Shown here: piece by piece, positions 26,461 through 61,567 of the stretch
How positions within the stretch are numbered: the first letter of the stretch is position 1
Layout of the letters: the number at the start of each line of letters is the position of its first letter
Origin: Bolinopsis microptera
Taxonomy: Eukaryota; Ctenophora; Tentaculata; Lobata; Bolinopsidae
Length of the DNA stretch: 64,000 bases
Assembly (NCBI RefSeq): GCF_026151205.1
Contig: NC_087074.1
Coordinates: 8,659,726 to 8,723,725 of the forward strand
Direction: 5' to 3'
Translations under genes and position numbers: made by a program
The notes under the pieces: model-generated
What the model was told of the DNA's origin: nothing
The model's database searches: none
Seen by the model: the letters and a program-made list of their open reading frames with translations, nothing else

Positions 26461-26691
26461 CTTTCTAACCTGCATTATAATTTTTATAATGTTTAGCATT
26501 ATTATTAATATTTTATGCATTAATTTTACCACTAAGGTAAATGTAAAAATCTGAGCGTTTTAAAAGGATACGCACAATGTACACGGTGAACGAAATGAAA
26601 TTTAAAATTGGACAACAGATTTTATTTTCAGAACTGATAATAAGGTAACCCATTGTAGTGGCTCCTCATCAAATATTGTACTACATCATGT

Positions 26692-38013: not shown

Positions 38014-41000
38014 TCATACCTTGCCATCCTCTGCAGCCTCCTTTTCAATAGCTAGTCCTGCTCTTGCACGAATTTTGGCAAGAGTCTTCTTCTCTGCTTT
38101 CCTCTTTTCTGCCCCATAAGACTCGTTGAATTTAGAAACGATAACAGTCATAGGAAGAGCTAAGATAACAATCCCGAGCACCACGGCTACGGAGCCGATC
38201 AGTCTACCAACGGGAGACTGGGGATAAAGGTCTCCATAGCCAACTGTTGTAACGGTCACTATACTCCACCAGCAACCCAACAAAATGCTATCAAATCCAG
38301 AGTCCCGGCCTAACTCTGCGTAGTACATGAGCGTGCCGAAAAGAAGAACAAATATTGCGATTAGAAGAGATAGCAGGACGAATTCTCGGGCAGCTCCGGC
38401 GATCACTTTCATCACCACAATCAGCTCTTTGGAATGCCTGATAAAACGGAATATACGGACCACTCTGCTTGTTCTACAGATTCGCAGAACAACGAATTTG
38501 TCACCAGCAGCTCCTGATTCCGAGGTGAACATGGCAATGAGTTCAATGTAAAATGGCAAAATTGCCAGCAAGTCTAACACGTTGAGAACGTTCTTAAAGA
38601 AAAGCCACGGTTTGGGCCACGATATTATTTTTAAAGTAAAGTCCAGAGTGAAGAAGCCATTGATCAAGATTTCAAGACCGTATAGAACGTAGTAGTAGTA
38701 TTTTTGAGGGTATTCATCTGTGTCGTCAAAGTAGGGCGAACAATCAGGGACAGATTCTGCTACTAGGAGTATTACAGACAGTACAATAGCCATCATGTCA
38801 CAGAATGCCCACAACATTGCCGCTTTGCTGTAGTGGGGATCCATCAAAAAGTTGTGTAGCTTTTCTCTTAAGGACAACTGAAAATAATAAAGGTTTCAAC
38901 GTTGAAAATTATGTAAACTTAATTGTGAAAAATCAATCAAAGTGATTAACCATGGCATTTATTTTAGCTCGGTACCCGATATCGTGATTGAACTTGAAAT
39001 GTTTGGCATGTTGCCAAACTACCCTTTCAGCTCAGCCTGGCACCAAGTTTGAATGATTGTTTTTTAAACGAAAATGCGAGTTTCTGTTTTTAGCGAAAAA
39101 AAGCTCCTTCCGATATTAAAATATACTCACACTTGCAATAATCCCACACAATTATGCACGCAACCTATTATTTGTTTACAATTACCTTCCAGCACAGCTC
39201 AATCCAAATAATCGATATCATTTAATTATTAATCTCCGGAAGCGTCTAATAATATACCTTTACAAATTCTAAAGAACGGATCAGAAATTAAAGAGCAGGA
39301 CTGAAGCGGTCTTCTATGAAATAAGAGGATAATTCGTCAATAAAGAAGAGAACAATCGTCCAGCCCATGCCAAAAACTGTCATGTTAGGATGCCATTGTA
39401 CTTAAATTTAAAGTTGGTTACGTCAAAATCCGTATCCTGCTCATTATACTAAATTGGTCAGGTTGTATAGAATATCCGAAGACTGAATTGTGCAGTGATG
39501 CTGCGTGTCCGTGTTTTTATCTTGAAAACATGATTACAAATATGGAAATGTCAAAAAGATCATGAAAATATCAATATCTGTGCAGATTTTGATATGGAAA
39601 TTGGCTATTTATATAGTTTAAAGTGAGGATAAAGGCGCGCTTATGGTAGAAGAATTCTAATAACTGGCTGTGTGCCATGTATCTCTAAGTTAAACGTTAC
39701 ACAATGCAAATTTAAACAGATTTAGTGCAGATCGTATACTGATGTGGCTGTGAATGCAAGCATCGCTAATATAAGTTCACGTGACTTATGTTTGCTATAT
39801 TTCTAACTTTTCTATCAACCTACTTCTTCTGTGATCACTTCTTCCTCTTCGTCATCAAAAGTGAATATCTTTGCCAAATCGACCTGAATAGTTTATTCCA
39901 TTATCTGACAGATACTTCCAGTCAAAGTATTAATCTATGAAACACACAACCGCACTTCATTCAATTATGAGTCAATTTTGAAATTGGGGTACATTGTAAA
40001 AAGATAAAAGACGAATTATTGGCACACTTTTTATTGGTTTGCTTGTTTTCTGACAAAAGTGTTTGTGTGTTTACTACATTATATACGAAAATATAACTCC
40101 CTTGTAGTGTTATTTCTAAACTTATGGTATCGCTTTTGGTGATATTAGTTCACGCAACCTGCGAGAGAGTACACAACACTGTAATAATTCTAATCATCGA
40201 TTAAAATTAATGTTGATTAAATTAACAGAGCATCAGACTGGAGACTTTATTGTTTGATTGTCGAATAAATAGAATTGCTACATTGTATAACTGCAGATGC
40301 GTAAGACAACTAATCTAATAAAATCAAATGAAAATTTCTTGACATCAACCGCATACTGCAGATATGTCCACACTCCACTATAATAGTGCTCGAGAATCAA
40401 CCAAATTCTACCTTGAAAAACTCTAGCTCCTCCTCGACAATGTCCCGGTCGATATTTGTCGGAGACCGGAACACCCCACGTGACTGATAGAAGAATAGGA
40501 TGGCAGTGAACATGCCCCGGTGACGATCAAAGTAATAAGCTTTAACTTCCTCGTTGTAGTAGTCTTCTATATCGCTCGATCCGAGCAGAGTATCTGGAAA
40601 AAACCTGAGGGAATGGAAATTTAGCTACCGGGCGCAAGTGTGGAATTTAGTTTTGAAATCCACAATTTTTATCCTAGCAGAATTTCTCGATAAATGCAAT
40701 AATTTGTTTTTGAAATGAAATTTGTAAATTAATCCCAAAGCAGTCATATTCAATGGATAATTCAATTCAAAATGAGAAAATATTTTACTTTGTGGAATCA
40801 TTACGACAGTCAAGCTAAAGATTTCAAGTCAAATGGTCGGAATAGTTCTCTTTTGTCGGGAAATCATAAAAATTATACTCCTTTCATACTTCGTCCTTAA
40901 GTACAAAGGATAAACATAAGAATAATCAAAACATTGAAGCAAAGTTATGACGCGTTTATAGGCTTGGGAAAGCTACAATTTTATAAAAAAATTTCCGACT

Positions 41001-41420
41001 CAAAATTAATTATGATATCCGACTGAACAAAGATGACCATCATCGCAACTATTTGAGACTTCCGGGAGAAATAGTGCAAAAAATGTTCGCGCATACCGGA
41101 AATTAAGATGGTAAATGGCAACAATGTTCACTATTTTAGCCGAAAAAATGTTCGCCCAAAAAAAAAAATAGTCCCCGAAGATTTTGCCAACGGGGATTTG
41201 GCTTTTTGGGTCAAAGCAAACAATCGTGTTCAGCTAAATACTAACAAACCCAATCCTTACAGAACTAATAATACTGAGTTTTTTATAAAATTACCTGAGA
41301 GTTTCTTTCGTCGTAGTGAACTCTTTTCCGCTCACGTTTATCTTGATAAGACTGTTTTCGGTCTGATGAAGGTACTCGTGGTGATTCTGACCAGAGTCGT
41401 ATTTCATCGGCAAGTTGTTC
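38014..41420 (-). CDS. Shaker-type voltage-gated K+ channel, constant core (four exons)
   Basis: Exons 41295-41420, 40412-40604, 39824-39883 and 38014-38880. All phases match; the first is entered in phase 2, so a 5' exon must supply the start. T1 tetramerisation domain: INVSGKEFTTTKETL, then FFPDTLLGSSD, YYFDRHRG and AILFFYQSRG, without the Zn-binding HxxxxC...CC of Kv2-4, so Kv1-like. The last exon encodes S1-S6: S4 VLRICRTSRVVRIFRFIRHS with Arg every third residue, the S4-S5 linker, selectivity filter TTVGYGDLYP, and S6 with PMT where Shaker has PVP. Four subunits would form a plasma-membrane delayed or inactivating K+ channel. The coding end is GKV-stop; AAG|GTATGA there could also be a donor to an unseen exon. 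Which N-terminus is used depends on the alternative first exons upstream. Confidence 0.92.
39970..40165 (+). repeat. Dispersed repeat, copy 3 (in Kv intron)
   Basis: ATTGGGGTACATTGTAAAAAG, TTTCTGACAAAAGTGTTTGTG and GGTGATATTAGTTCACGCA match the blocks at 1950 and 3765. Confidence 0.6.
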
Positions 41421-41914
41421 CTGAAAAGGGTGTGTCAGAGCTTTTTAGCATCAGGCTGAAAGGAAAACTCCTTGAAAATCGCGATAAGGATGATGTTTCT
41501 GAAATTAATAGTTTATAAAAAAATTGGTGGGTCCATTTTATCACGTCCTGGAAGATTCATTAGGATTTAAAAACAATATTAAGCTCAAACGTTAAAGAAT
41601 GTTTTTACTGTCGGCCAAGTAGGCTGATCTTCTATCGAAGCTGCATCTCCCTTCGGACAACTTTGCTCGGAAAATTAGACAAATTTCCAGAGAAAAATAC
41701 AGATGAATAGAGACGAAAAATGGAACTTATATACCAGGATCAGAATAAAATGTATCTACTATTTCTTGGGTGGTTCTATAATTAGTGTTCAGAAATGAGC
41801 ACTGTTGAAGCTAGCTTGATCATTAGAAGAGTAAGGGTCTAGACATGATTTTAAAATAACAAAAGGGAATGATCTGGGAGAGTGTAAAATCGGGGAAAAT
41901 AATATCTATCATAC

Positions 41915-42072
41915 TGTGGCTGAAATTCTGGGCAGGCCATGACGTTGTTAATGGCCCGGCCCCAAGCCTCCGATGTTACAGCCCCGACCACCAAAGTCTG
42001 CATGGACATCTCCATACCATTGTACGGGTCCTGTTTTATCCTCGTCTTGTATCCTCGGTAATACGAAGCCAT
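41915..42072 (-). CDS. Kv alternative first exon A (ball-like N-terminus)
   Basis: ATG at 42072, 52 codons, donor CCACA|GTATGA in phase 2. It lies 495 bp upstream of the first constant exon and joins in frame to a 467-aa channel. The N-terminus MASYYRGYKTRIKQ is short and aromatic, then strongly basic, like the inactivation ball of mammalian Kv3.4 (SSYRGRKSGNK). A less basic linker follows. Confidence 0.75.
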
Positions 42073-43154
42073 CGTAAATCAAGATTTCGGAAGACAAATT
42101 GACAGAAGTGACAAACGATTATAGTTCCATCAGCCGAAGACAAAGGAGATATACTTTGGAGAATATTATTTCTTCGTGGGAAAAGTGAGCAGCAAAGCTC
42201 GATCGCAGATTCATCAGACACTGATTCACACAAGCACTACACCACGCCAGTCGGTGGCCACAATTTATACCAAATCAGACCGGGTATTGTTCTCTTAAAC
42301 CACCTTTATGGTTTAAATAATCTTATCCGCACTGCGTGGCGTGGCATTTATTGAATTGCAACGATCTTTAATATAGCTCATAATCAATTTTAATTAGATA
42401 CTGGAGCACTCACAACGGTTTATAATTCTATTAATCAAATGGTTCACTTCAACGATATGTAATTTGGAGAGTACGTGGTTGTAAAACTAAAAGAGGCAGT
42501 GATCTTAAATCAAGCGCGTAATGTAGATTATATCCACTATCAGACGACAGAGCTGTCAAAACTAAAAATATGAACAACAATTATTTAAATATTGAACATT
42601 GGTTGATCAATGACGTTATTCATTATTATACTTTTGCTTTCCGGGATAAAGAAAAGTTGTTTGTTCCCTTGCTACTAAAAATAAATGTTCACAGAGGAGA
42701 ACAACCTAAAAACATATCAGAAAATAATTGCAGTACATAATAACATTTATCTTGCAAATAATCTATCTCTAAAGTTCAATTTAGCTTTTTTATATAAAAA
42801 CATGAAATCGAAGAGTTGAATGAGAAAGAAGATACTGAATGTGGTAAACCTCTTATCAACATAAGGATAGTGTTCATGATAAGTTCAAGAGTGTTTTCAA
42901 TTTCTAATCCAGATACTCAAATGTTAACAAAACAACAAAAAAACGGCTCTCCTAAAAAGATAGGACGTGACATATTGCTCATGACTCAAAGCTCAATACA
43001 TCATTGGTCAGTCATGCTCTAGAGAAGATCTCTGTGTTGGTGTCAGGTATGAGGTATAACCATGCTCATAATTTCAACTGCAGTCTAACCTTCTGACAGT
43101 GTGAGAGTTTAGAACTCTCAACTACAAGTACGAACAACCAACTCCCTGACTTAC

Positions 43155-43225
43155 CCTGTCCCTTTGATAGTGGTTGTCATGTTCATCGACCGATTGGGTC
43201 TGCACGCACTGCTGTAGACCGCCAT
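43155..43225 (-). CDS. Kv alternative first exon B (ball-like N-terminus)
   Basis: ATG at 43225, 23 codons, perfect donor GG|GTAAGTCAG in phase 2. N-terminus MAVYSSACRPNRS: hydrophobic head with a Cys, then Arg residues, as in redox-sensitive balls. Splicing to 41420 would give a 438-aa channel. No other gene on this strand could use it. Confidence 0.72.
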
Positions 43226-43980
43226 GATTACGTAGATCACTCCCCGTACTTATACCACTTTCAAAACAGCTGGAAACAAACACAACCCAATGCTATCTGC
43301 CACCACTCTCAGGGTTAACTATCGTCCTCCTTAGGAAGCGATTCAGGACGATTATAAGTCTGGAGATAAGACGTAAGGCAGGTAACTAAGACGTGGTAAC
43401 TGGTGGAGAGAGCTCCTCTCAAGGTTTGTGTTGGCGGTCTCTTGAGAAGATCTGACCTCCTCCTGACAGACCACTTATACAGACTATACAGACTCAACTA
43501 ACAACCCCAAGTTACTGACCTACTCTTTCTGGTATATGTCTTGGCTTAATTTTGACCTGATTTTCGAATCAGATATTTAAGTAGGTTAAATAAACTAGAT
43601 AATGTTCTAAGCTCTCAAGTTTTGTAATTTCATGGCCTGACGGTATAATAAATGGCGGTGTTGCGGCATGGTTAAGTGCCCATTAAGATGGTTATTCTCC
43701 AGTACGCTTTGTGCGGTAATGGAGCATACTTAAATTATTATGGTCAGGTGGTCAGGAGTACTCAGCGAATCTGACAGAGGAGGAACTCTCACACAACCTT
43801 TCCATGTGAAACTCAGCCAAACAACTTTAATTGGTTAATAGACATAATTGGTGGTGGTAGATATATTCCCAAATAGAATAGAAACCACCATAGAAATCAT
43901 AATGAACAGTAATGATGATGGGCGTAACTGAAGTTAACTAGTAGCATAAGTAGTATGGTCAGGTCTAGCAGTAAGTATAC

Positions 43981-43994
43981 GTCGAGTAGAGCAT
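43981..43994 (-). CDS. Possible Kv first exon, MLYST (weak)
   Basis: ATG CTC TAC TCG AC then GTATAC in phase 2. Only 14 nt and a mediocre donor; may be chance. Confidence 0.15.
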
Positions 43995-44423
43995 ACAATA
44001 TAATCTTATATAATAGTAGAATCCAGATCAAGTTTTAATGACATAATTGTAGTCAATACTCAGTAAAAATATAGTTGAGGATTGCTAGGTTCTCACCAGA
44101 CGTGGTCATTGTCCGTTACACGGCCGTATTGCTTCTTTAGTCGTTTATAGCAAGCCTGAGACGAGGAATCCGATGAAACTAGGCCGAAACTAAATCACGG
44201 TAATTCTGGCTAGATAGCTGTCTAACTATACTGATACTTCGTCTTGATGAAGAACGTTATAATTTATAATAAAGGTTCGTTTAAATCTCGAAGTTTGATT
44301 AAGAGGAACCTTTTGTGGTTAAAATGGCTACGTTGGGAAAAGGTAACATTTGATTGCAGAGAAAATGAGGTTTTGAAAAAAAAATGAGCTGTTTTTACCG
44401 TCCACATATACCGACATCCATAC

Positions 44424-44482
44424 CCGCCCCGTCGTCTTCCTCTGTTTTTAGTGTAAAATTTGCAGTCTGAGTAAACAGTCAT
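44424..44482 (-). CDS. Kv alternative first exon O (ball-like N-terminus)
   Basis: ATG at 44482, 19 codons, donor GG|GTATGG in phase 2 (a second phase-2 donor CG|GTATAT lies slightly downstream). MTVYSDCKFYTKNRGRRRG starts like exon B (M-x-V-Y-S) and ends in a strongly basic cluster, a good ball-and-chain layout. Confidence 0.6.
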
Positions 44483-45533
44483 TACAACTAAAAGCTTATA
44501 GAAAAACAAAGGCTTATGTCTGGAGATGCAACTAGTTAATTACTATTTTAACTGTACTGCAAGGGTTAACTGATTTAGGCTGCTGATAATGCTATTAACC
44601 GATTAGGATATTGTTAAATATTACCCGTACTGAATCACCCGCACTTGTGTGTTATGTGTTGATTTTACATTCGTACACGAGATATAATTATTCCACCATG
44701 TCCATGGTGCATACAGCGTTGTGAATCTTTTCCATGGTTCATCCACACCAATTTGGACCAATTATAAACCCTTGAAATCAAAATTGTTTCAACCACGTTA
44801 CATCCTATGTTATGGCATATTCAAATCATTTACATGGCTTCTTAGCCTCTATAAGTTATCAAATTGAATTACAGTCGCAGTTAATGGTCGAAATAAACTT
44901 CTTAGAATTTAGTGAAGAATATTAAAGTCTGAAGTATCTCAGAAATAAAAGAAATAGATGTTCCGCCGATAAAGACGCCGTGCAGTCTTTAACTTAGTCG
45001 ATTAAAGGAGACTACTTTAATCATTTATAAGTTTATAGGGTGGAGCATGCCATTCTTCAAAGTGACCCATTAAGGAACTATTACTCGGAGTATTTCCGAC
45101 TTCTTACAGTCTTGCGCGAGCAACTTGGATTCATTTTGCATTGCAACAGTATCCAAAAAGGATACAGTTAGAAAGGCTTTGTCTCTGATTTATCCGGAAC
45201 AAAGGTGGTTGAAACCCAGTATACTATAAGAATATTGCTTATATAATTAGTGTATAATACAAGCTAATGATCATGGGAAGGTTGTGATAAACATGAAATT
45301 GTTTTTCCTACGAATAATAGGGCACGAGGTTTAAGAACAATATAAATTAAGGATATAATTATAGATCAGCAGTACGATTGTTGTAGGGAAATTGTCAGAA
45401 TAAAAGATCAATAGAAAAATAGAAGATGTAAAACCAAACTATAGAAATGGTCCATGTGCTGGGTGAAACATTTGTTCATGCTGAGAGATAAAAATAAAAC
45501 TCTAAAACTGACAATATAATATATAATACTCAC

Positions 45534-45628
45534 ATGCGCATTTCGGCCATGACCTCGAAGACAGCATTGCTGAATCTGCCACCACCAAAGCGGCGACCTG
45601 ACGTACTGTAAGCAGCAGCGAACGCCAT
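45534..45628 (-). CDS. Kv alternative first exon C (ball-like N-terminus)
   Basis: ATG at 45628, 31 codons, strong donor AT|GTGAGTATT in phase 2. MAFAAAYSTSGRRFGGGRF has an Ala-rich head followed by Arg residues, the arrangement of the Shaker B ball. Frame-compatible with the constant exon at 41420. Confidence 0.74.
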
Positions 45629-46453
45629 CTATTCCTCATCTAGCGTCTCTAGAGTTCATTCAGAGGAACTTCGGGCAGGAAATGTTAGACGAGTTGTCCA
45701 GGAAATGGCTACATAACAAGACAGTCACAGAGTGTCAGAATATCTGAGGATTCCAGCCGAACAAAAGGCCTTCAGTTAACACAGGTGGTTGAGAAGGTGG
45801 CGCTATTTGCGAGTTGCTTACTTCAGAGATGGCTTTAGGGTTAAACAAGAGCCACGTATAATTGAGACCTGTGGGCACAATCTAGACTGGGAACAATGTG
45901 CGCAACGGGAAATAGACTTCTAGCCATTGTATCTCCAGCCCACTGTCTTAAATAACTCCACCACCGTCTAATGTTTGCTAAGATTAGACTTTCTCAGCCA
46001 ACCCTGTTTTCTGTCTACACCCGAATTACCAAATCAGATACCTATATGGAGCCTAAATCACGAGAAACGGCACGGTAACTGACTAATTGTTGAGGCATCA
46101 CTAAAATATTGAGCAGTTGAAACTGGCAGCATTTTCCAGAAGATTTTGAGACCCAGGCATTTTGATTTAGGAAGGTCACGGAGTGAAGGCTTGCTACCTG
46201 CATCAACTGCTTTGTTTGAAACATTACGAGCGATGAATATGTTTTGCGACTTATAATAAATGTGGCGTGATCATCATCGTGAGAAATTATCTGATATAAT
46301 GCTAAAATATATCGCACAATAATAAAATTACTGCCCATGTGTTTTCCTTAAATGCTCTTGTAACTTATTGGTTATATCAAGTTAGTCAACTCACCAGCAC
46401 GTACGTCTAGGTTACAGAAATATCCCGACCCGTCATATCGTAAAAATACTCAC

Positions 46454-46461
46454 TGAACCAT
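46454..46461 (-). CDS. Possible 8-nt Kv first exon D
   Basis: ATG GTT CA followed by GTGAGTATT, phase 2. If used, the channel would have almost no N-terminal extension before the T1 exon. A very short coding part cannot be distinguished from chance by eye. Confidence 0.25.
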
Positions 46462-46805
46462 GCTCATAATCTCATTAACGTTTGATCGTAGGAAAATTAC
46501 TAAATGTAGCGTAAAATACCACGTTAGGGCCGTTACCATGTGACATGAAAAAAAAAATTATTACCGATTGTGGTGGACTAATTTCCGTATAAGGACTGTC
46601 AGTGATCATGTGTTAAAGTCACACTAGCATACAGCATACTATTTGGTTTTATTTCCTGTTAGACCACAGTCCACAATACATATCACCATTGGATGATTAC
46701 TTTATTCAACAAGTACAATTGCAATAAGTAGGTTGCTAGACATCAGAGAGATATTGATGGTGTTCTTTACGTAAGGCTGCTAAGATCTGACACTGATGAT
46801 TACAG

Positions 46806-46956
46806 AATGAGCTACACATTACTGGCACATTACTGGCACAACACGTGAAGTATCACATTACTGTCACAACACGTGAGCTACACATTACTGGCACTACACA
46901 TTACTGGCACAACACGTGAGCTACACATTACTGGCACAACACGTGAGGTATCACAG
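46806..46956. repeat. ACACATTACTGGCACAACACGTGAGCT minisatellite (split unit)
   Basis: Four to five imperfect units built of ACACATTACTGGCACA and ACACGTGAGCT. Each full unit holds an ACGTGA core. It lies in the Kv first-exon region. Confidence 0.85.
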
Positions 46957-47460
46957 ATATTCAACAGAATGAACACCCAGCCTGCTAGTAGACAGTTGAC
47001 ATAGGGAAACGACGGTACAAATTAGGACGAATCCAGACGGGCACCTATTTAATAGCTAATTAACACCCTGAAAATAGGATTCCAGTTAAACTGAGGTCAA
47101 CAATAAACATATAATAACAAAGCGACCAAGATAATCGGAATAGGGTCGTTAGTTTACTTAGCAATCACTAGATTAGACTGCATGGAGCGTGCTGCAAAGT
47201 GCACAGCAGACTCTAAATCACGGACACAAGCAATAAAAATGAAAGATTATGACGACTCATTTTTTTCTCGGTGATTTTATCTTTTTAATTAGACTGTAAC
47301 TTAGATCGAGAGCAAGAAACCTTGACGAAACATGATCACGAAACGGGAATTTACATTGTCTAACACAAAAAAGTCAATGTGCAGTTACTGCATTGTTCAC
47401 GATGATGATAATGATACAAGCAATATATCAGTAAATAACAGTAATACATAACACAGTGAT

Positions 47461-47497
47461 AAGTCATGTAACTGCAACTACTGGAGTTACATGACTT
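47461..47497. repeat. Hairpin with 13-bp stem
   Basis: AAGTCATGTAACT and its exact complement AGTTACATGACTT with an 11-nt loop. Confidence 0.85.
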
Positions 47498-47499
47498 GT

Positions 47500-50400
47500 G
47501 CTTGACTCAACCTCGGAACAAGTGAATATTAATATTTGTCATTATCTCATAACTTTGATCTCAAGATTGGCGCAGCAAAAGAGCAGATATATAGAGGCGA
47601 ATTTAATTGTAATGAGTTATACAGGGTGCGGTTGTTAGAGACTTGGGATTGGAGTGTAGGCTAATGGGTATGGAGCTTTTGAAAGAGAAGAACTTAGAAA
47701 CAAATCTTCTTTGCAGCAATACTAAGATGGCACATACTCTCTCTAGAGTACGGGAAATAAAATTAATTCCTCAACGTCCTTTTCCCCTTTAATTTGGTGA
47801 GGTTATTTGTCAAGCTCTCTAAAGTCGACTAACTTCCCATACGGTAATTCGGATATTATGTGGACAAATTGTCCTTAGTGTTCCATACTGTTCAATGTCT
47901 AATTATTTGGCCTAACCACTGAAATTATCGTTCTGACAGTAATTCCCGATAATGATTTCATTACCATTGCTCTGAGTGGAATACTGAAACATTACTCTTT
48001 AAGCTAAATTAAGACATGACATTTTTAACTTAGTCAAACCGCCGCTTGACAAAATGTCGCTCACTGTCAGTGATAGACAACATTTAATTCAGGTCTCACA
48101 TTAAATTAATTTGCGGATTCTGCTTATTATGATGAGGATTTATCTGGAAAGTTTACAGTTTCTAGTATTGGTTCTTTCCGATAATGAGAAGTTACTTTAA
48201 ATTAATCTTATTAAGCACACCATTACTAAGAACCATGTGTATTTAAAGGTGTCGCCACACATATCCACACTTGAAGCGCGACACTAAATGTAACCAAAGA
48301 AACAAGGAAATAACACAAGGAGTGAAGGACGGCTGCAGAATGAAGGACGGCTGCGGCTCTGTATTCTGGAAACTTTCTGGGGAGTTTAGGCCTGTCACTG
48401 TTCAATATCAATAGACATAGTTGACCATGGAATGAAACAAAGCCTCCTTCAAGAGGAGAAGAATGTGACCTGGATTAGTGTGGTACTAGACCCTGTATGT
48501 GCATTGTGCATAACCAGCAAAATTGTTGATTAGTATTTGGGGAGAATGCCATACATGTGTAATGTCCTGCGTTTGAATTGTGTATCACAAAACGGCAGCT
48601 AGTGTTGTGATATTACAAGTATGTTTCATTAAGGGTTTGAAGCATCTAATTTCCCTCATCCATATTGTCGTTGTTGGCATTTCTGAGACATAACTATTGA
48701 AGCTAACCTAAATACTCCAATGATCATTCTTTTCTTGCGTGCCGACACATAGACATTGAAATATCTGGCTCGAGAGGCTTGCTATAGACGAAATATAATT
48801 GAAAAATTACATAGTATGTATCGCTTGAGATTTTCTTGGGCGCTCGAGAAACAGGTTCAAGATATGAACTCGAATCTAAATCGATACCAGGTTAATCTAA
48901 AATTAATCAGCTTGGATCCAGGAATGTGTTAAGCGCCTCAAATATAACAGCTGGAATTTCACTGTGTAGTTGTATGATTGAAATTTCTCTACCGGGAACA
49001 CAATATATCTTAACGACAGTGTAGAATAGACATTCCAGCAAGGCAAAAATAAGAAGGAAATCTGAACAATGAACTTAATTGGCAAACAATATCCACAAAT
49101 CTGGTCAAACTGAACCACTGGACCAGACTCTTGTTTGAATTCCACTCTTATTTTAAATTCAGCAAAACACACAAATTTACCGAACTATTCGAGGATGGGA
49201 CAGAGAAATGCGTCAAAAAGGCGGTCTAATATGGTCAGTATACTCGGTGTAAAACTTCCCGTAATAAAACAGGGCTAACAAGGCGCCTGGGTTAAAATTC
49301 TGGGGAATTACTCACACACATGTACCTTCAACCGCGGCAGTTTTCAACGACTATTAAATGTTCATTAATTTACTTGTATAAATTATTATAAATTCGAATG
49401 GTATGGAATGTGAACGAGTTATCGATTGTTTTGAAACTATGCAAAACTGTGGTCAGCAAAAATTTAGTGTTCGCACCTTAATTTTGAGGCCATTAAGAAA
49501 ATGAAGCTGATAATAAGAATATGTTTACGCCAGCGCTAACTGTCCTCGCAATTATATTCCCTTTTATTATCAGCCGCGTATAGTTTTTAGTAAAGTTGTA
49601 TGCTTCTGTTTTACCTTTATGCTATTCAATTAAAATAGGCAGATATAGGTAGGTATCCTACAGCATGGTAGTACCTATGAATACTTCTTTACGCTATTTG
49701 CTTGTTATATGTTTAAGGTATTATTTATTAGGTAGTTCAACTAAATATTAACACTATTGTAATTAAACACAGCAAAGCAGTAGTCCTGAACAGGAAAGGT
49801 AACCCCTAGTTTGTTGCCTATTTTTATGACACCAGGTACCAAATCCTCAACTTTTCATTTGCGCACTAAAACTGTGGAGCCTCGATAAACTCAGCAACAA
49901 ACACTTTGTCAGATAGCAAATGATAAGTCAGATAGCTAATAGTATGTCAGATACGGTCAGACTTTTTATATTTTGACTTTCTCACATAAACGGTTTAATT
50001 TTATCAAAATTAAATTTAAAGAAAATTTTGTAAGAAAATGTCTGTTTCAAAGAGGACAACTCTAATTTGTTGACAAAAGCCCAGTACGGTGGGGAAATAT
50101 ATCCACCTGAATATTTACGGACTATCGGAATTGGTGGTATTCTATTAATTAAGAGGGATTAAATCAGAACGCTAAACGAGTAATATTTACTGGTCTCTAT
50201 TATTTAGAATGGACACATATATGATTTAGAACGTACACCCACACACTCCCCACTCAAAACATCAACAGTATCTCCCCGCGTCGGGTAAAGTTAGACATTC
50301 GGGTGCCAGGCTCGGTCTCCTGATAATTGTAGAAGATATTCGAGACTTTGCTCAGCTCTGGACACCGCCGCGGAGCTGGCGGTTACGTAATTCTTGGTCT

Positions 50401-51180: not shown

Positions 51181-51185
51181 AACAC

Positions 51186-51337: not shown

Positions 51338-51668
51338 ATGACATTTTATTCATTCACCACGGCCGGTCGCGGTCTAGACCCTTATTAAAATTTTACATAA
51401 AATAGAGGTGCTTCGAGTAGTCCTCAAGATCCCGATAGCACCGGCCTCGACAGGAGCTTTGGCAAACCAAAAATTGCTATCCATTCTCTCTGATCATACC
51501 TTAAATTTCTTTTATTCTCTGTACCTAACCGAAAACAAGATACGAAAAAAGCTTAACGACACTGCGAATAATTTCTATCACGTGAAGTTTAAAATTATAA
51601 CGCAGAAACCATTCCTCCAAATCATAATCATTCACCAGAACTAAATATTGAATAAAGATTATAATTAC

Positions 51669-51883
51669 CCTGATTCAGAGGAGACAGTCTTCTCGCAAAC
51701 TTCTGACAACCCATCTTTGATCGCGCTGATATCAAGTGTTGGGTAGTTTATCCTCTCCCCTGCATACGAGATCTTCCGGTTACGTGGTGTGTTCTTCTTG
51801 GGAGGTTCAAATGTGCAGAAAGATTTCCTAACTGGTCTCCGGTCGCTGAAGTTGCTGTAAGCGGCCCCACCACTCACAAACAT
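51669..51883 (-). CDS. Kv alternative first exon E (ball-like N-terminus)
   Basis: ATG at 51883, 71 codons, donor GG|GTAATT in phase 2. MFVSGGAAYSNFSDRRPVRK has a small-residue and aromatic head, then a basic stretch, and continues with a Lys/Arg-rich chain. The frame is clearly coding-like. If joined to 41420 it gives a channel of about 486 aa. A separate short gene is the alternative. Confidence 0.7.
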
Positions 51884-53245
51884 AGTGGAATGATACTATC
51901 TGTCCCGGATTTACGCAGATTTGTTATATTCCGTAGAATCAGAATCTGAACATGAGATACAACAGAGATACGATCTGAGATATGATTATAAGAACTAAAC
52001 TCTTCTGCGGACTTAGTGTGGATCTAGTACGGAGTACGGACCTAGTACGGACTTAGTACTGACCTAGTGCTGACCAAGGAAACGGAAGCAACTAACTCTA
52101 TTTATTCTAAGCAATGAATTGGAGCGGTGTGTAATACGAAGGGATATAAATAAACGAAGAGATATAGACACGAAGAGAAATATATACAGTATAATAAACA
52201 ATCCTGCTGCTTTATAACTTTAGATTAATATGCAATATAAACGTTTTGAGCATGGCTGTTACAAATATATTGCTCTTCAAGCCATTGTTCACTGAATAAT
52301 TAAGTCGATATTGTTCTCTGCTAGATATTGTGGCAACTGGAACGGTAAACAATACAAAGCAATAGCTCGTTACTGCATGGGTAACTTAAGTAGTAGCTGA
52401 AGCTGATCAGTTATAACAAATAACAGTGCCGTGCCACTATGTTAGGTTCTGCTAGATCATATCGTGTACACAAGATAAACTATACCGCACCATATACCAT
52501 CCCCTGGTAAGAGTAAGACAGAGTACTGCTATCGTTTAGCAAGTCTGTCGATTACTGATATATTATGCATTATTGCATCATTGCGTCCATAAACTAGCAG
52601 CACTTTATCAGGGAACTCAGGACTACCAAATACCAAATGGGCTTGTTAGGGTACCAAGATGAGATATAGTTTCAAATAATATATAAGGATATAGTAACGA
52701 CTAACGACATGGTAGGCGCCCTACAATGGCAATGTCTTAAGCTGTCTATATAATATGCGTGTCTAATTATCATAATATCATAGTATTGCTTGAGGATCTC
52801 GACTACAAATAATACCAAAAGATAACCATTCGAATAGAATTATGATGCAGCCACTTATTATGCAAATCCGAGGACCTCCAAGCTCTAAAGCCGACCCAAT
52901 TAATAAACCCTGATACACTTCACAGCTACTGCCACCACATCCGGGTCTATCTTTAAGAGAGTTCAGAGCGATGTTCGTTGTTCGGACAATAATAATTGAA
53001 CTTATAATAGAATTTTATAGGCTTATAAATATCTCCGGGATTTCGACGCGGGATCATATTATCACTCAGCCCGGCCCGCTGTTAGATAAACATCTCAAGG
53101 TGATATCATCCCGCCCCGGAAATTTGTATAAACCCGGCCCGCTTTTTAGTCGTAACTGATGTTTATCATTCAATTCTCCGACTTACAATAATCAATGATA
53201 CTGCTGATTAGAACTCGATAATAGTAGAACAGTTAGACGCGCGAT

Positions 53246-53329
53246 CACGTGGGCGCGTCACGTGCGTACCACGTGCCACCAATAGCATACGCCGAGTCTA
53301 TACCACGTGACACGAAAGCGCACCACGTG
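53246..53329. promoter_or_regulatory. Cluster of five CACGTG E-boxes
   Basis: CACGTG at 53246, 53259, 53270, 53304 and 53324, five palindromic sites in 84 bp within a CpG-rich patch. CACGTG binds bHLH-ZIP factors such as USF, Myc/Max and CLOCK relatives. It lies within the Kv first-exon region, 210 bp downstream of candidate exon F, and may be a promoter or enhancer. I see no other gene next to it. Confidence 0.6.
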
Positions 53330-53539
53330 ATATGAAACATCGTAACCGTCCACTTCTTTTACACGCAAATTCCTGGGAACGTTGCCAAAGCAGCTAATTC
53401 TTGGAATTTCTCCAACGCGTGGCGTGAGAAGTTGGCGACTAGCCAGCTACCCTTGTCCGTGCCCTAAAAATAGTATTGTTTTGCTTGCTCTCCTTCCAGC
53501 TCTTGTTCCTGCTAACGTTCAAGCTATTGCTCCACTTAC

Positions 53540-53562
53540 ACTATGACAGATCGGTTTGACAT
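53540..53562 (-). CDS. Candidate Kv first exon F
   Basis: ATG at 53562, MSNRSVI plus GT, then a strong donor GTAAGTGGAG, phase 2. Short and without conservation data, but the phase fits the array and it sits in a CpG-rich promoter-like stretch. Confidence 0.4.
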
Positions 53563-53656
53563 TCAGATTCTAATGTATTTCTAAAGTATATATCCCTTGT
53601 CGAAATCGCCGGAGATAATTATAATCCATAAACACTTCACGCTCAGGGCTAAATAA

Positions 53657-53794
53657 ATGTAATCCCTCAGCTGGCGCTTCGGGATTACATATTAACACAA
53701 AACTCGTGCGCTGCGCGCACTCGTATGTGTTTATCAGATCATCCCGCTAGCGCGGGATGATCTGTTATATAAACCCTTTGCGTGGCGGGTTTAT
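53657..53794. repeat. Four back-to-back hairpins
   Basis: Stems: ATGTAATCCC/GGGATTACAT (53657-53690); AACACA and GTGCGC with their complements (53694-53731); CAGATCATCCCGC TAGC GCGGGATGATCTG (53735-53764, perfect); ATAAACCC/GGGTTTAT (53769-53794). They differ in sequence but share layout and near-absent spacers, like the cluster at 35025-35125. Confidence 0.85.
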
Positions 53795-54111
53795 GTTATT
53801 ATAAGTTAATAACCCGTAGAGCTATCGTAAACGCAAGATTTGAATAGCAGCTTATTGGCCTGATGGCCTTGTTACCAAACTCATCGTTTAAAGATTGCAG
53901 AATCTTCTCAATGATTGAGGACACACAAGTGGACGAGTGAAGGTCAAAACCAAATTATCAAACCGTTCGCATAAATTTGCCAGATAAGTCATTATCATCC
54001 ACACGTGGCGCCTCTAATACAGGACTCCGACATAGTCATTTTATCTGATTTCATAATTCATGAGCTTAGATCATAAATAATCGCCCTCATCTTTAAAGAT
54101 GAAGGTAAATG

Positions 54112-54513
54112 TATTGTTCAGAAAGTCTGCATCCAGGTCAAATTGATACAATTATGCTAATAAGACGGGTCTATGAGGACAATGCAGCACCATCGCCAGT
54201 ACATTGTCAAGACAAACTATTTTCATTGATGGTGAGCATAGCGATTACTACACTACATGATCTGCATCACGGTAGGTCGAGAACTCTTAATTCTGATGTG
54301 GTAAGGATATTAACCACCGATATTGAAAGAAACAAGAGCCTTTCTTTATTCTTAGCTAACCCTCGTTCATCATATGATGGTTTTAACATAGGAAATTCTT
54401 GGATATTATTGGAAATATTTATATATTTGTTCCATTTAATGGGTAGATGTAAGATAACTTCCTGGATCCACAAGTTGCATGATGTAGATTGTAGATGGAG
54501 ATTGGAGAAGTAG
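54112..54513 (+). other. Unassigned 134-codon open frame
   Basis: An uninterrupted + frame ending in CRWRLEK, with a hydrophobic stretch (SWILLEIFIYLFHLM). No family recognised and no splice context. Its length is unusual for this AT-rich DNA, but I cannot support it as a gene. Confidence 0.15.
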
Positions 54514-55711
54514 TATAATCTGGATCAAGGTTGGGTCAAGGTCTACTATCAATCAGCCAATTTGTCTACCGTATAGTTTAGTGGAATATGACGCGGTATA
54601 GCAGCAGATCGTGTACTTCTGGCATTTGATCAGTAGACTACATCGTCTACTTTAAGGGCCTAATACTCTAAAATCTGAATACTGGGTGCACGTTGACGAA
54701 CCATCCAAATCTAATGTACTGGTTTAATCAAATATTAAATGAGAGATATTTGATAAACACCCCATCAACTTGCTGAATCTATCATCATCATAAAGGTTGA
54801 AGAAACGAAGCGAATGAGAAAGTTGAATTTTATAAACTAAAGGATATGGCTGTCTTGTGCCGACTCAGGAGTCATGAAGTCGAATCTTGGCTTGAAGTCA
54901 AAGTGATCACCGTCTTCAAGCGTCAAGATCACTAAAGGTTCGTAGCTCTGCGGCTGAACGTCATTAATACTTCTAGCTTAGGTCCTTAATCCATATTTAT
55001 TATATTACCTTTAGTTCCATGTGAATAACTTTAGACAGAGCTATTGTTTATTATGTAGCAAATTGATGGCGAGTGCGGGATAATTAGTTAAAATATTAAA
55101 ATTAGACACGCGGTTGAGGAACCATGTGATCTCCAAAATACGAGCAGCTTCATGTTTAAAGGAGTTACAAGCACAAAAGAGACAAAAGTTAAATGATATT
55201 TAATTAAATGCTTATGTGAATACATCAGAATAATTACGCTATGAATAATATGTTATTGAATTTTATTGGATACAAAGTTACATCTTGTCAAAGTCAAATC
55301 TAGGGTTATCCTAAAGCTAATTCACTAAGAGTAAGTTACCAAAATAGTCGTAAGGCGCCCAGACAGATAACAAGATAAGGAACCTCACAAGTTACATATT
55401 TGTCAGTATCTGAAAAGGTTAATTAACCAAATGTACTCGATTTGTATTATTATTGAGTGCGAGAAGTGAGCTACTGACCGAAAGGGTCGTACAATACAGA
55501 CACGGTCGGCAGCAAACACGTACGCAGTTTTATTTTATCAACAGTTTTTAAATGAATGATTTATGCGTAAAATTGATGCCAAAGCTCTTTTTACAATATA
55601 GATTGTAGAATTTAAGGATTAGGAATTCGAGAAGTTCATATCATTTAAAATAAATCTTATGAACATTTGCATGAAATAACTAAATGAGATGAGAGAGCTA
55701 GTGTTCCCCAC

Positions 55712-55803
55712 CGTATTTTATCCTGATCCAGTAGTTTCTTGTACTTCTTTTTAAGGTCTGTTATAAGTGATTGACTTGTCGAGAATCCCACTACCCCGTC
55801 CAT
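55712..55803 (-). CDS. Candidate Kv first exon G (Lys-rich)
   Basis: ATG at 55803, 30 codons, CG|GTGGGG in phase 2. MDGVVGFSTSQS is followed by a Lys-rich helix (LKKKYKKLLDQDKI), a ball-and-chain-like order. The donor is weak, which lowers confidence. Confidence 0.4.
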
Positions 55804-56028
55804 TGTTCAAGCGTACCTTTCATAAAACCAATAAAGCTTGTTCCACTCTGATCGAACACAAAAAATAATGAGAGCAAAATAGAAGCAGATCGAAAAACTT
55901 GAAACGCGAATAAGTTGACAATGACGCGATGAAAGCAGATTCCTACGTTAGGGCTTCTTAGACGTTCCCTGTATTTTTAACTTGGACTACTTGTCAGCAA
56001 ACATCTTGGACTCAACGGTAAATCTCAC

Positions 56029-56036
56029 GTCTGCAT
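56029..56036 (-). CDS. Possible 8-nt Kv first exon H
   Basis: ATG CAG AC then GTGAGATTT, phase 2. Too short to judge alone. Confidence 0.2.
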
Positions 56037-57415
56037 TTGAAGTAAAAGTTTATTTTATTTTTTGTCGTACAGACGATAACAACAGGACAAAATCAATTTG
56101 ATTTAAGGGATTATTATTAATAAACATGCTTTAATACTGATACGATCAGATTGTACTAATTTTGTATCTTAAGATCATATACTCAGTGATCGCTGTGACG
56201 TTATTGATCGATATTATCCTGAGGTGAAGTAGCCATGTTCGTTAAAGGACACATCCTCTTAAAGGCACCACTGTTACTGTAATATGACAGCTTAAAGGCT
56301 CGGGGCTCCCTTTTGTTGAAAGCCACCGTTGTGACGAGCGGTTTTAAAGTGTGAAATGTGCCGCTGAGTATTCAATTCTCTGACTCAATACAAGGCAAGT
56401 AGAGTTGTGAAACGTGGGGGTTGTTGTCGACTATATTAGGTACTGACAGATGAGTTTATAGTTAACATTGAAGTGCTGATAGTGGAAATAAGGCGAGTGA
56501 TGAGATACTACAAGTGCTGAAGTCGGGAGCACAACGGTGATCATGAACCAAGTATTAACAAGAAATTAAGGGAGTAGGTATTGTAAAATGTCTTTGTACG
56601 GTTTCGCATGCACCCTCTCAGCCCGGCCCGGCTACGATTTCATCGATGAGACGATGGTTCTGGCAGCGTCTGACAAAATATATATAAAATTATTAAATAC
56701 AAATTCTAATAAAAAGTTCTAAAAATACATAGAAATAATGTAAACTGTTTAACATTGTTTGTAGACTTCTTCAAGAGGAAGGTATAGAGTAAAGTTTATC
56801 ACGAGGATTTTCAGAAAAAAGTATGCCCCTATCCGTGTGTTGAAAGTTTTCTTCCCATAATGTTGATCATATCTTCAGGAGCTGTTTCTGGCGTCTGCAG
56901 CATCTAGTGTTGTTCTGATACTGGATATATCTTCAAAAAGTAACATCGTCTATTGAACTATCAAATCTCTGATCAGGAGAGTGAGAGAGTCCTATCACTT
57001 ATGCTTGATAATATGTATAAGTATGTATAAATGTAAGCAGGCTAATTATAATTAAAACAATAAGTACTTATCATGAGTACGCGGCGTTTATAATTATAGG
57101 GAACCTTTTGTAGATCTCGTAGATTATGTTTTTATCTATTGAACGTGATGATAAACCCGGAATACTTAGAGAGGGGAACATAGGCCAGTGTATTGGTGTA
57201 CTCTCTTTGTCAACGATTTGTCTTACGAATGTAAGTAATGCGCTGCTCGATTAATGCTAATGGAGTAATAGCTGTCTCTTTTTATTTGATCGAGAATTTT
57301 GGTGAAATATCGTGTTTTTTGTTGAAGAAGTAATGTTTTTCCAAAACTTCTAGTGCTACTCATATTGTTTGGTTATGAATATTTGGTGTTTGTAAATTAT
57401 TATTTTCCTTTCAGA

Positions 57416-57866
57416 ATGAAAATAACATTAGCTCTCGTGATAATAGTTCTGGTGATGGGCGGTGAAACTATAAATTGTCATATCTGTGAGGTAGTGGAGG
57501 ATGATGGTAACGAAGTAGAGTCCATTGCGTGCGAGAAAACGAGCATTAAAACATGCGGAGAAGGAGAGGACGTTTGCCGAACAATCACCGTGGGTTACAG
57601 TTTGTCTTATATGACTGCGCCTGGGCCAATTCTTGCTTCTTCAATATTCTACAAGTGTGGAACAAAAACCAAGGAGGGTGCGGATGATGCCGATTGCCGA
57701 CTGTGGAACCTTGACAGCAAGTTTTGACGGTTTCGCGGACTTCAAGTGCGAATCCAAATACTGCGACACTGACGCTTGTAACACAGGACAGGTTGCTCAG
57801 ATACCCTTCTTCATGATTGTTGCTACAATCGCCTTCTACGGACTTTCTAGATTTCCAAACTTTTAG
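57416..57866 (+). CDS. Ly6/uPAR-like GPI-anchored protein with an apparent frameshift
   Basis: Nested on the opposite strand in the Kv locus. The ATG at 57416 follows a good acceptor (CTTTCAG), suggesting a 5' UTR exon. Signal peptide (MKITLALVIIVLVMGG), CHIC, spaced Cys, and the LU-domain signature YCDTDACN, then a C-terminal hydrophobic tail (IPFFMIVATIAFYGL) for GPI attachment. The two parts lie in different frames. Near 57687 a 7-nt near-repeat (GCCGATT GCCGACT) adds seven bases, exactly the shift needed. Either the allele is broken by a 7-nt duplication or this is an assembly error. Ly6 proteins act at the cell surface, often modulating receptors or channels. Confidence 0.75.
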
Positions 57867-58092
57867 TCCTCATGCAACTACTTCAGAAAAAAATCAGCAT
57901 ATCATATCAATCAGCATATATATTTATTTAGTCGCTGGAAAGCAGTATAGATAAGTTACCATTTTCGACAGCGACCTAAAACGAGTTTGGTTACTGATTC
58001 ATTGACGAAAACTAGTTTCTTTTCCGTCAAAATCAGCAAAAATAATAAACGATAAACTAACACTGTAGTCATGGCGGCAAAATTAAACTTAC

Positions 58093-58112
58093 TTGATCAT
58101 AGCATAATCCAT
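58093..58112 (-). CDS. Candidate Kv first exon I
   Basis: ATG at 58112, MDYAMI plus AA, then a perfect donor GTAAGTTTA, phase 2. Twenty coding nucleotides only. Confidence 0.38.
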
Positions 58113-58263
58113 TGCTGTGGTGATCGACGAAATGGAACTAGTACGCTACAAATTGGAGAAAGAAATGCCGAAAAAAGTTAATGTATTGTAGGATTAGGAT
58201 GTGATGACAATCAACGTTAGAATTGGTTGATGAAGTTATCGGACATGATCTACGGTAACATAC

Positions 58264-58286
58264 CTATGATTGATATCACAGTACAT
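58264..58286 (-). CDS. Candidate Kv first exon J
   Basis: ATG at 58286, MYCDINH plus AG, donor GTATGTTAC, phase 2. Confidence 0.38.
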
Positions 58287-58660
58287 ATAAGAGCTCAAAT
58301 ACAATCATAACTGAGTCTGACTCATAAGAAATATGATTAGCGCAATTATAAGTCTGGGGGAGAGCGAGGAGGAATCAAGTACAACTAAGTTATTTAATCT
58401 ATTCCATTTTTCTTTACCTCGAAAACAATGTTACTATATGGGCACAAATGGACGAATGATGATGATACAGTCGATTGTCGAACCTCGATATACCGGTTAC
58501 CTCGATATACCGGGCCTCTTCTTTCCCCCAAACCTTTGGTTAATTATCTAATTTTTGCAAGAAATGATACCCTAAAGACACTGGGGATTGGTTTGATATT
58601 GGTTTGACTGTATACTCGATCTAACTCCAAACCTTTATTAAAAATACATGCATTACTTAC

Positions 58661-58668
58661 ACTGACAT
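58661..58668 (-). CDS. Possible 8-nt Kv first exon K
   Basis: ATG TCA GT then GTAAGTAATG, phase 2. Same size as candidates D and H. Confidence 0.22.
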
Positions 58669-58824
58669 ATGTACTGCTATTATAAGGGTTGATCGCATCA
58701 AAGCGCCGAGGTAGTAATATCAGCCCTCAACCTATATAGTGTGAGTCGCTCGTGATTCCTGAATTTAATCACTAATTTGTTTTCTCATACCAAAAAGTGA
58801 CTTGCAAATAAAATAAATTCTTAC

Positions 58825-59369
58825 ACAGATGTACAGGTGGTGTGTTCTCCTTTAGGGGCTATAGATCCAGTGTTTTTAGAGTGAGTAACTTCAACATCAG
58901 GATTATTCTTATGACCAGTCCAATTATTGCTCAAATTCATCGGTATTGCTTCATCTAAAGAAGAGTCCATTGTTCGTTTTTTCAGCAACAAACAAGTGCC
59001 ATTTCGTGGTTTTCTCTGTCTCAAGGGAGAATTTATGTTGTTTGAGAATAGGGATTTATCTTTGACAACGACCTCTAATTCATTTGCTTTTTCCTCTGTA
59101 GTTGTATCAGCAGTCAATTTAACATGTTCTGTAAGTAAGGGTGTGGTATTTCCACTATAGTCTTCAGTAGTTGAAGTTTGATACGTATCATCAGTATGAT
59201 TCGGATCTCCATGTAATGTCCCAAGAAGCAAGCCAGTGATTTTCTCTACATCATTGTCAACAATTTTCAGAAGACATTCCTTGCAATTTTTGTTGCCAGT
59301 ATTTCTAGCTGCTAAATCTGATTCATCTTCATTCTTTCTAGACATATAAAAACTCTTGATTGACCGCAT
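58825..59369 (-). CDS. Long acidic exon: Kv first exon L, or separate gene ending CTSV
   Basis: ATG at 59369 and 181 codons. Donor GT|GTAAGAATT in phase 2 would splice it to the Kv core, giving a large acidic Ser/Thr/Asn-rich N-terminus. Read through instead, it stops two codons later with C-terminal TCTSV, a class I PDZ-ligand ending. Contents: CKECLLKIVDND, many Asp/Glu/Thr, one Lys/Arg cluster (RQRKPR). No known domain. Phase and the shared donor style favour the first-exon reading; the PDZ-like ending makes a separate short gene or a last exon possible. Confidence 0.5.
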
Positions 59370-60580
59370 ATCTTCATTTCAGTTCCATGATGGCAAGGTT
59401 TTAGCTGTGGCTAAAAATATAGATTTTAAACAATTGTAGGTACATTTTTCCTGAAAAATGTGAAAAAGCTACCTTGTTAATTATAAAAAACACAATAATG
59501 GTTCTCATTTTGTAATAACATTCCCACTTCCCAGTTACGCCCACCCTTGCGGTCGGGTTGGGGTTAAAGTCGGGCAGAACAGAATTAATCATAATGTAGT
59601 GAACAACAACTGAAAAACTTATAAGATGATTCAATATAGATTACAGCATCGAGGTATTAATTTCATCGTTTCTGCTGAATTATCCTGTTAGTAAATAACT
59701 TAATTCCTGTTTACTACCACTACTGTTAATTTCACAAAAACAAACAACAGGCAATGAAAAAAGGAAATATATTTAACAAAGCTAATACTGATCAGTGTTT
59801 ACCACACAGTTCGTGATAAATTCCATCAGTATATTTCAAACAATTGACGTTTCGCCACCAATTCTTAGGCAGCTTGGTGTATCACACAGTCGAAAAGTAA
59901 GGGTTGTTTACCCGTTTATTAAATTACAAATTACGAATTGATATGGGATAAACGTTTAACGGGCTTAAAGTTTTATTTTAAATAACAATGTAATGTCAGT
60001 GACACCAATATATTGCGTAATAATGTATTTATTAGACACAATCTAATCTATTTATTAGACAAATGAAGTATCGTTCTAGACGAATGATTTTATCACTTCA
60101 TTAGCGAATAATAATAATAGAAAGTATAAGTGTTATTTCATTAAATGCATTTTAATCGCCTTTATCCGTTTGGTATAATGAATAAGGGTCGATAAAGCTG
60201 CCTTATCGTTTATCACACCTTAGTTATGATACCAAACAGTGAGGACCCAAAGTATTGGCAATTAATAGTGGCCATTGTCAGACTTGTATTCATTAAACAA
60301 TTACCACCTTGGCAATTACCATCTTGGCAATTGCCTGATAGCCCAATTTTGTCCCTCTAGCCGAATAGCCTTTTTTATTATTATTAATAACCTAACATTA
60401 GCCTAGTATAGGTCTTATAATTGAATTACAAAGTGATTAGCTTGAATTAATATTAATTTATTAATTAAACTACAAGTGCTGTTCAAATAAGGACTGATAA
60501 AGTAGTTTGTCTCATACATTTTCCACCCTTTGAAGGGAGTCCTGTTTTTAGTTGTAAGTAACCCGTTAGTTGTAACTAAC

Positions 60581-60636
60581 CCGTTGAGGAAACCTTTGAT
60601 AAGGACAGGCACTGCTAGCAGAGTTGGAGCCATCAT
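60581..60636 (-). CDS. Candidate Kv first exon N (hydrophobic N-terminus)
   Basis: ATG at 60636, 18 codons plus GG, donor GTTAGT in phase 2. MMAPTLLAVPVLIKGFLN is strongly hydrophobic with one Lys. As a first exon it could act as a sticky inactivation head; it could also be a signal peptide of another gene. Confidence 0.42.
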
Positions 60637-61508
60637 CCTGAACAGCAATTAAAAAAGGGGTTTTATCACAAGAAGCTATGAGCTACTCGAAATGTGAGTT
60701 GTATGCGGCTTATTCAGAGTAAATATAAGAAATAGAGCATAATGAAACAATGTATCATCGTTATGACGTTAGAATTAGAAAGAGCCACATTTCATTTGAG
60801 CGGAATGAATTCTTTATGAGATGGAGTTGAGCGACGGGTGGAACTGGAGCGTTGTTAATTGTTCGATTAACTCTGCATTGTGTTAAGTGAGCTATAACCA
60901 TATGTCCTTCAATAGATTGCTACAATATTTGGTAGTGGCCAACATTTCATCTGCAAAGACAATCGATCAATTAAGTTTGTTAACTTAGCAGCGTATCTAA
61001 TTTTGTACAGAGTTCGCCAAACCCAAGGTTAGTTATTCAACGAAAAAAGCGTTAATCTACGGCTGATGTTGTTTTTACATTGGACATTACGTTAAAAGAA
61101 TGTTCCAGTGAAAAAGTTTTAATGTTCGTGACAATACTTTCAACTTGTCACCAACCAATTTATTCCATTACAGAGCTGTTAGAATCGTTTGCGTCACTAC
61201 AAAATCGTCACTTCAATCACAAACATACATTGAAAACGTGGCCAAGTTGGCATGTGAATTCAAACATCAGACACCGAACAGAGCTGACCTGTCTTTGTGA
61301 TCAATATTTTCAAGTTTCAACTCCTATCTCATTAATCACTAATATAAGTTGGTCGGTAGAAATGAATCTGATGATCACTGCTTCACGAATTGACAAATAA
61401 TTTGACCTCATGATGATAACGATTCAAACAGAAATTGTCCATCCCATGTACTGTTATAGTAGTATAGACCAGCTAACCGTTAGAATTACACAAAAATAGT
61501 CAACTTAC

Positions 61509-61567
61509 CCGTCTATAGAACCGTAAATCTGCACATTTTCACAGTCCACGTCGGGACAATATGCCAT
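61509..61567 (-). CDS. Kv alternative first exon M
   Basis: ATG at 61567, 19 codons, perfect donor GG|GTAAGTTGAC in phase 2. MAYCPDVDCENVQIYGSID is acidic, without the basic chain of A, B, C, E and O, so this isoform might lack fast inactivation. It is the farthest upstream candidate found, 20 kb from the T1 exon. Confidence 0.55.

Follow-up and report, generated by a model that had tools for sequence, protein, structure and literature searches.

Candidate alternative first exons upstream of a Shaker-family Kv channel gene in the ctenophore Bolinopsis microptera

In Drosophila Shaker, variation lies in several N-terminal exons, and in the clustered protocadherins, where constant exons are joined to variable first exons, the variable exons are homologous to one another, stand in tandem and have a promoter motif in common. 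Ctenophores reportedly possess Shaker channels with N-type inactivation, to judge by the title of Simonson et al. 2024 (Biophys J). A cnidarian study cites as established that Drosophila Shaker is alternatively spliced with distinct inactivation kinetics and concludes that in mammals and cnidarians, unlike in protostomes, little of the diversity of Shaker channels comes from splicing (PMC3519636). Alternative 5′ exons are also described for the DPP6/DPP10 and KChIP genes, with five DPP6 variants mentioned (PMC3973911). These genes join a common core to alternative 5′ exons, as we propose here for a voltage-gated potassium (Kv) channel gene of the ctenophore Bolinopsis microptera, but they encode auxiliary subunits of Kv4 and not pore-forming ones. 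The gene lies on the minus strand of a 64,000-nucleotide stretch of contig NC_087074.1 (C3 in the contig numbering used below; positions 8,659,726 to 8,723,725; hereafter the window, whose own numbering is used) and encodes, like Drosophila Shaker, a Shaker-type channel, its layout being read from the sequence. The annotation of Bolinopsis drew on RNA-seq and Iso-Seq reads (PMC10232365). In the reading that we favour, with a probability of about 0.4, some two to five alternative upstream coding exons would reach the constant T1-to-S6 exons, the best starts being the ATGs at 42072, 43225, 44482, 45628 and 51883. No report of a ctenophore Kv gene with alternative first exons appeared among the entries listed in literature searches, which do not reach most subscription journals, and the word "undescribed", which an earlier note on this DNA had used of the layout, is to be read with care, since Drosophila Shaker splice forms give distinct inactivation (PMC3519636).

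The constant part of the gene is real and consists of four minus-strand exons, with junctions read by eye, that together encode a T1-bearing (Shaker-family) Kv channel:

41295 to 41420, minus strand: constant exon 1 (T1a), acceptor TTTTCAG before 41420, phase-2 entry, donor CAG/GTAATT, BTB_2 match.
40412 to 40604, minus strand: constant exon 2 (T1b), BTB_2 match at C3:8700131-8700346.
39824 to 39883, minus strand: constant exon 3, acidic T1-S1 linker, by splice-site reading.
38014 to 38877, minus strand: constant exon 4, S1-S6 core, with S4 RICRTSRVVRIFRFIRHSK, filter TVGYGD and S6 ALPMTVIV.

Pfam matches to BTB_2 (1e-18) and Ion_trans (5e-37) place T1 ahead of the ion-transport core, and both the S4 charges and the TVGYGD filter are present. 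The exon reading and the BTB_2 match bear out the earlier note on the constant Kv exons, which lie on the minus strand, and on the need to enter 41420 in phase 2. That note had not included an in-frame ATG at 41407 (MKYDSGQNHH...), 13 nucleotides (nt) past the acceptor of T1a. Constant exon 4 stays open until a stop past EDGKV, where GTATGA is a possible alternative donor. Among PDB entries the best scores were those of Kv4.2 (205.5 bits), Kv1.2 (199.4) and Shaker (199.0), a ranking by score; the gene may belong to Kv1 (Shaker proper) or to Kv4. A silent-subunit reading, considered on account of the PMT motif in S6, was dropped because, of the 14 distinct genes in the alignment of this motif, 11 carry it.

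Upstream of these exons (41421-64000, minus strand), ATG-initiated exons with phase-2 donors do exist, as the earlier note had claimed. Eight of them were examined by name, and all eight join T1 without a stop, having all been picked for being phase 2. Their coding likeness was judged by a codon score trained on 6028 codons from Kv loci and 956 from other open reading frames (ORFs) of the window, which on the channel core gave p<0.05 in 8 of the 9 windows of thirty codons and in 7 of the 15 that were eighteen codons long; the p values below are uncorrected for the number of candidates tested, and the null regions of this main scoring and of the second one cited below include 59700-61200, which contains candidate 60636 itself.

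41915 to 42072, minus strand: proximal candidate, ATG 42072, phase 2, MASYYRGYKTRIKQDPYN...ACPEFQP, weak donor ACA/GTATGA, p 0.002.
43155 to 43225, minus strand: proximal candidate, ATG 43225, phase 2, MAVYSSACRPNRSMNMTTTIKGT, donor AGG/GTAAGT, p 0.051 (0.037 in a second scoring).
44424 to 44482, minus strand: proximal candidate, ATG 44482, phase 2, MTVYSDCKFYTKNRGRRRG, donor CGG/GTATGG, p 0.10.
45534 to 45628, minus strand: proximal candidate, ATG 45628, phase 2, MAFAAAYSTSGRRFGGGRFSNAVFEVMAEMR, donor CAT/GTGAGT, p 0.004.
51669 to 51883, minus strand: proximal candidate, ATG 51883, phase 2, 71 codons, MFVSGGAAYSNFSDRRPVRKSF..., donor AGG/GTAATT, p 0.018.
55712 to 55803, minus strand: weaker distal candidate, phase 2, MDGVVGFSTSQSLITDLKKKYKKLLDQDKI, donor ACG/GTGGGG, p 0.006, net charge +1.
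60581 to 60636, minus strand: weaker distal candidate, phase 2, MMAPTLLAVPVLIKGFLN, donor CGG/GTTAGT, p 0.005, net charge +1.
61509 to 61567, minus strand: weaker distal candidate, phase 2, MAYCPDVDCENVQIYGSID, donor CGG/GTAAGT, p 0.058, net charge -4, unlike a ball.

The five proximal candidates all lie within 10.5 kilobases (kb) of the constant exons, and three of them, 42072, 45628 and 51883, are clearly coding-like. Acceptor-like sites upstream of the eight ATGs are somewhat better than those of all minus-strand ATGs (p 0.016-0.027), with one 44 nt upstream of ATG 43225 and another a single base ahead of ATG 60636. In searches of the same genome, the peptides of five of the eight exons (42072, 45628, 51883, 55803 and 60636) matched only themselves. 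About 330 nt downstream of the exon at 51883-51669 sits an 8-base repeat of 19.4 copies (51183-51337), the minus-strand reading of which, GTGAGTAA, is a run of consensus splice donors.

A local, strand-specific excess of phase-2 candidates is modest but present. With at least 12 codons and a donor score of at least 0, on a matrix of approximate metazoan frequencies, the phase-2 share upstream was 16/31 (52%) vs 391/1389 (28%) elsewhere, meaning the opposite strand, the remaining window and both strands of the other loci retrieved; the excess amounts to about seven exons' worth. At the same settings, the minus strand of the paralog locus L022 gave 14/41. When the region was compared with 15 first-order Markov shuffles (at least 6 codons), phase-2 candidates numbered 20 vs 12.4 ± 3.3 at score ≥1 and 12 vs 8.2 ± 3.0 at score ≥2, the latter being 1.3 standard deviations up, and candidates in phases 0, 1 and 2 at score ≥2 numbered 4, 6 and 12 vs shuffle means of 7.1, 7.4 and 8.2. 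The phase-2 excess that the earlier note had called for in a whole-locus scan was found in modest form, without a rise in the total over the shuffles. Coding-like candidates at donor score ≥2 were phase 2 in five of seven cases upstream, where 8 of all 14 candidates were phase 2, and the opposite strand held a single one, in phase 1. A cut at score ≥5 left two upstream candidates, both phase 2, but was too strict for junctions known here (GTAATT, GTAGAA, GTAGGT) and was loosened.

Of candidates with GTAAGT, GTGAGT or GTATGT donors, the earlier note had counted eight of nine as phase 2; with at least 12 codons we found 7/9, a close figure, but the seven include an ORF of just 12 codons (63186), one made of a CT microsatellite (62122) and two that score as non-coding, 46539 (p 0.48) and 58698 (p 0.46). 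The CT-microsatellite ORF was left out of the phase-share, coding-like and stricter-null counts and kept in the shuffle and consensus-donor counts. A further candidate, 53340, scored p 0.11.

The N-termini of the proximal exons point in the same direction, in so far as they might resemble N-type inactivation peptides in charge and in a Tyr-Ser pair, with hydrophobicity judged by eye; one source describes the inactivation ball as generally hydrophobic and positively charged (PMC3634772). Net charge over the first 20 residues was +2 to +5 in the five proximal candidates, and controls had a mean of 0.62 (n=1343), 20% of them reaching +3 or more (all eight candidates vs controls, p 0.04). Tyr-Ser occurs within 10 residues of the start in four of the five proximal candidates. 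Written as M-x(1,7)-Tyr-Ser, a pattern set down after those four had been seen, it occurs at score ≥1 in 4/13 upstream phase-2 candidates vs 16/891 elsewhere, and in the paralog L022, where it had been seen beforehand, in 2/10 phase-2 candidates (Fisher p 0.015; 0.010-0.063 over four cut-offs), MLHYSKCTVFHR and MPVYSGEKTARI.

If these exons are used, each would supply its own N-terminus and be joined to the T1 exon in phase 2, and transcripts would then differ in their N-type inactivation peptide, some lacking one. That the exons are transcribed and joined, how one is chosen and that their peptides inactivate the pore are inferences. Choice could fall to separate promoters or to whichever acceptor receives a trans-spliced leader, and a leader joined at 41420 would give translation from ATG 41407 and a ball-less channel. 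The fuller form of this proposal is doubtful: at least five coding first exons, each with another ball, would be chosen by promoter or leader acceptor, so that one gene would yield fast, slow and non-inactivating channels, with the ball-less form made by a leader at the constant exon.

Several observations weigh against multiple coding first exons, and some of them favour an alternative almost as likely, that the gene has only one start. The acceptor at 41420 would then take a leader or one 5′ exon, translation would begin at 41407 or in that exon, and the remaining upstream exons would be products of chance or unused. The total of ATG-donor candidates at score ≥2 stands at chance level (22 vs a shuffled mean of 22.7), and candidate counting alone is not taken as proof because of that agreement; the "at least a dozen" exons of the earlier note, lettered A to O without coordinates, are not supported by such a total. 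Exon 42072 has a weak donor (ACA/GTATGA), and an internal donor, ATG/GTATGG, scores better and would give phase 1; 44482 is not coding-like and 43225 is borderline. Under a stricter null, which included flanks with genes, four upstream candidates passed at p<0.05, all phase 2 (60636, 59592, 55803 and 45628), of which only 45628 belongs to the proximal five, 42072 falling below the donor cut there; in the extension at 64001-84000 (minus strand) three candidates passed under that null, all phase 0. At score ≥0, Tyr-Ser also occurs in one upstream phase-0 and one phase-1 candidate, and another Kv gene, L014, has upstream of it a ball-like ATG-donor exon (MAGATLYAIVQR) that was read as being in the wrong phase. 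ATG 41407 stands 13 nt past a good acceptor, and L022 on C1, which of the loci compared is the nearest paralog (63% identity across query residues 23-327), has a similar ATG at another spacing, its Met, aligned by eye with that of the window, standing 2 nt past the AG. The paralog gives no support for phase 2 either, as the T1 acceptor that scores best there is in phase 1 and, among 16 AGs open to T1, the only phase-2 site is poor, so that its two phase-2 Tyr-Ser exons do not fit. Such drift in spacing and an unconserved phase fit an acceptor in a 5′ untranslated region or one that receives a leader. The acceptor at 41420 may simply receive a trans-spliced leader, a possibility raised by the ctenophore-like spliced-leader sequences that the genome bears: a 17-base leader motif with at most two mismatches occurs 146 times forward and 108 times in reverse, the reversed motif used as control occurring 67 and 57 times, with four exact copies of the leader motif within 83 kb on C13. 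Three leader-like copies, compared without gaps, equal the Hormiphora leader at 24-27 of 44 positions, of which the last 15 agree by selection, and in Hormiphora leaders are found on 56% of Iso-Seq reads, a lower bound (PMC8527503). Against a single start stand the excess of phase-2 candidates and of coding-like scores on this strand and several other Kv genes of the same genome in which N-terminal sequence is open before T1.

It is unlikely, though less so than the largest array considered below, that the upstream exons are real and belong to other genes, for instance nested or neighbouring genes on the minus strand. One feature in particular speaks for this:

58825 to 59369, minus strand: exon probably outside the Kv gene, a 181-codon ORF (59369-58827) with a phase-2 donor GTAAGA in which a stop codon can equally be read (GTG TAA).

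A genome search matched this ORF, at 43% identity across query residues 1-166, with one on C8 (L033), which is the first exon of a gene and adjoins chromodomain sequence. Identity by codon position was 0.68, 0.73 and 0.48, the third position having changed most, with a nonsynonymous divergence (dN) of 0.38-0.39, a synonymous divergence (dS) of 1.3-1.8 and a dN/dS of about 0.2-0.3; the C8 ORF opens with a PIP-box-like sequence. The exon had been taken for the best array member and was dropped as such, being related to another gene's first exon, and a phase-2 exon on this strand therefore need not be part of the Kv gene. It scored p 0.6 on the codon score, which must then miss some real exons. 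An opposite-strand ORF from 57416 lies inside the region, and the Hormiphora report finds it common in a ctenophore for genes to be nested (PMC8527503). On the other side, no minus-strand ORF of at least 150 codons was found in 41420-58821, although shorter exons of other genes are still possible there and exon-level gene prediction was not made, and searches with the chromodomain peptides of the C8 gene gave no convincing match in the window (best E values 0.40 and 0.44) or in the 20 kb beyond. The protocadherin-like array proposed in the earlier note, with at least twelve first exons and reaching out to 61567, is very improbable. The eight open joins and a phase excess of about seven exons speak for it, but the total is at chance, the consensus-donor exons 46539 and 58698 score as non-coding, and the distal exons differ in charge (+1, +1 and -4). 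Neither of the protocadherin traits, homologous exons and a shared promoter motif, was found: when the upstream region was compared with itself by blastn, no pair overlapped a named exon at the DNA level, and 8- to 10-base words shared by the 300 nt upstream of the eight window exons and two paralog exons were no commoner than in random stretches. What may survive of the variable-first, constant-rest layout is the small scale of about two to five proximal exons, which we favour over the large array.

Other features were seen along the way. Three members of the leader-like cluster (L036-L038, C13:12.81-12.83 Mb) end in ACAAATTAATTTGAG followed by GT. Beside one channel gene, the Kv pore sequence WWSLVTITTVGYGDMV matches at five successive 93-base steps and one more (L016:1855-2409), and two very similar Kv genes lie on C8 (L018, L019) with a third T1 copy, on the opposite strand, that contains a stop. 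Within the region of candidate exons, the plus-strand ORF at 57416-57880 is small, secreted-looking and cysteine-containing (MKITLALVIIVLVMGGETINCHICEV...), and looks Ly6-like. Elsewhere in the window, two very similar ORFs resembling G protein-coupled receptors stand in tandem on the plus strand (2432-3505 and 5281-6231), the second matching 7tm_1 and the first, as slice 2471-3505, giving no match, and a sulfotransferase (Sulfotransfer_2, 4e-22) lies at 25327-26559 on the minus strand.

If the gene does have a single start, it is an ordinary Kv gene that shows how easily phase-matched ATG exons arise. If alternative first exons do swap the inactivation peptide of this ctenophore channel, a splicing route to channel diversity would be present in the lineage that has been put forward as the sister group of all other animals. 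That diversity could also be linked to the use of spliced leaders.

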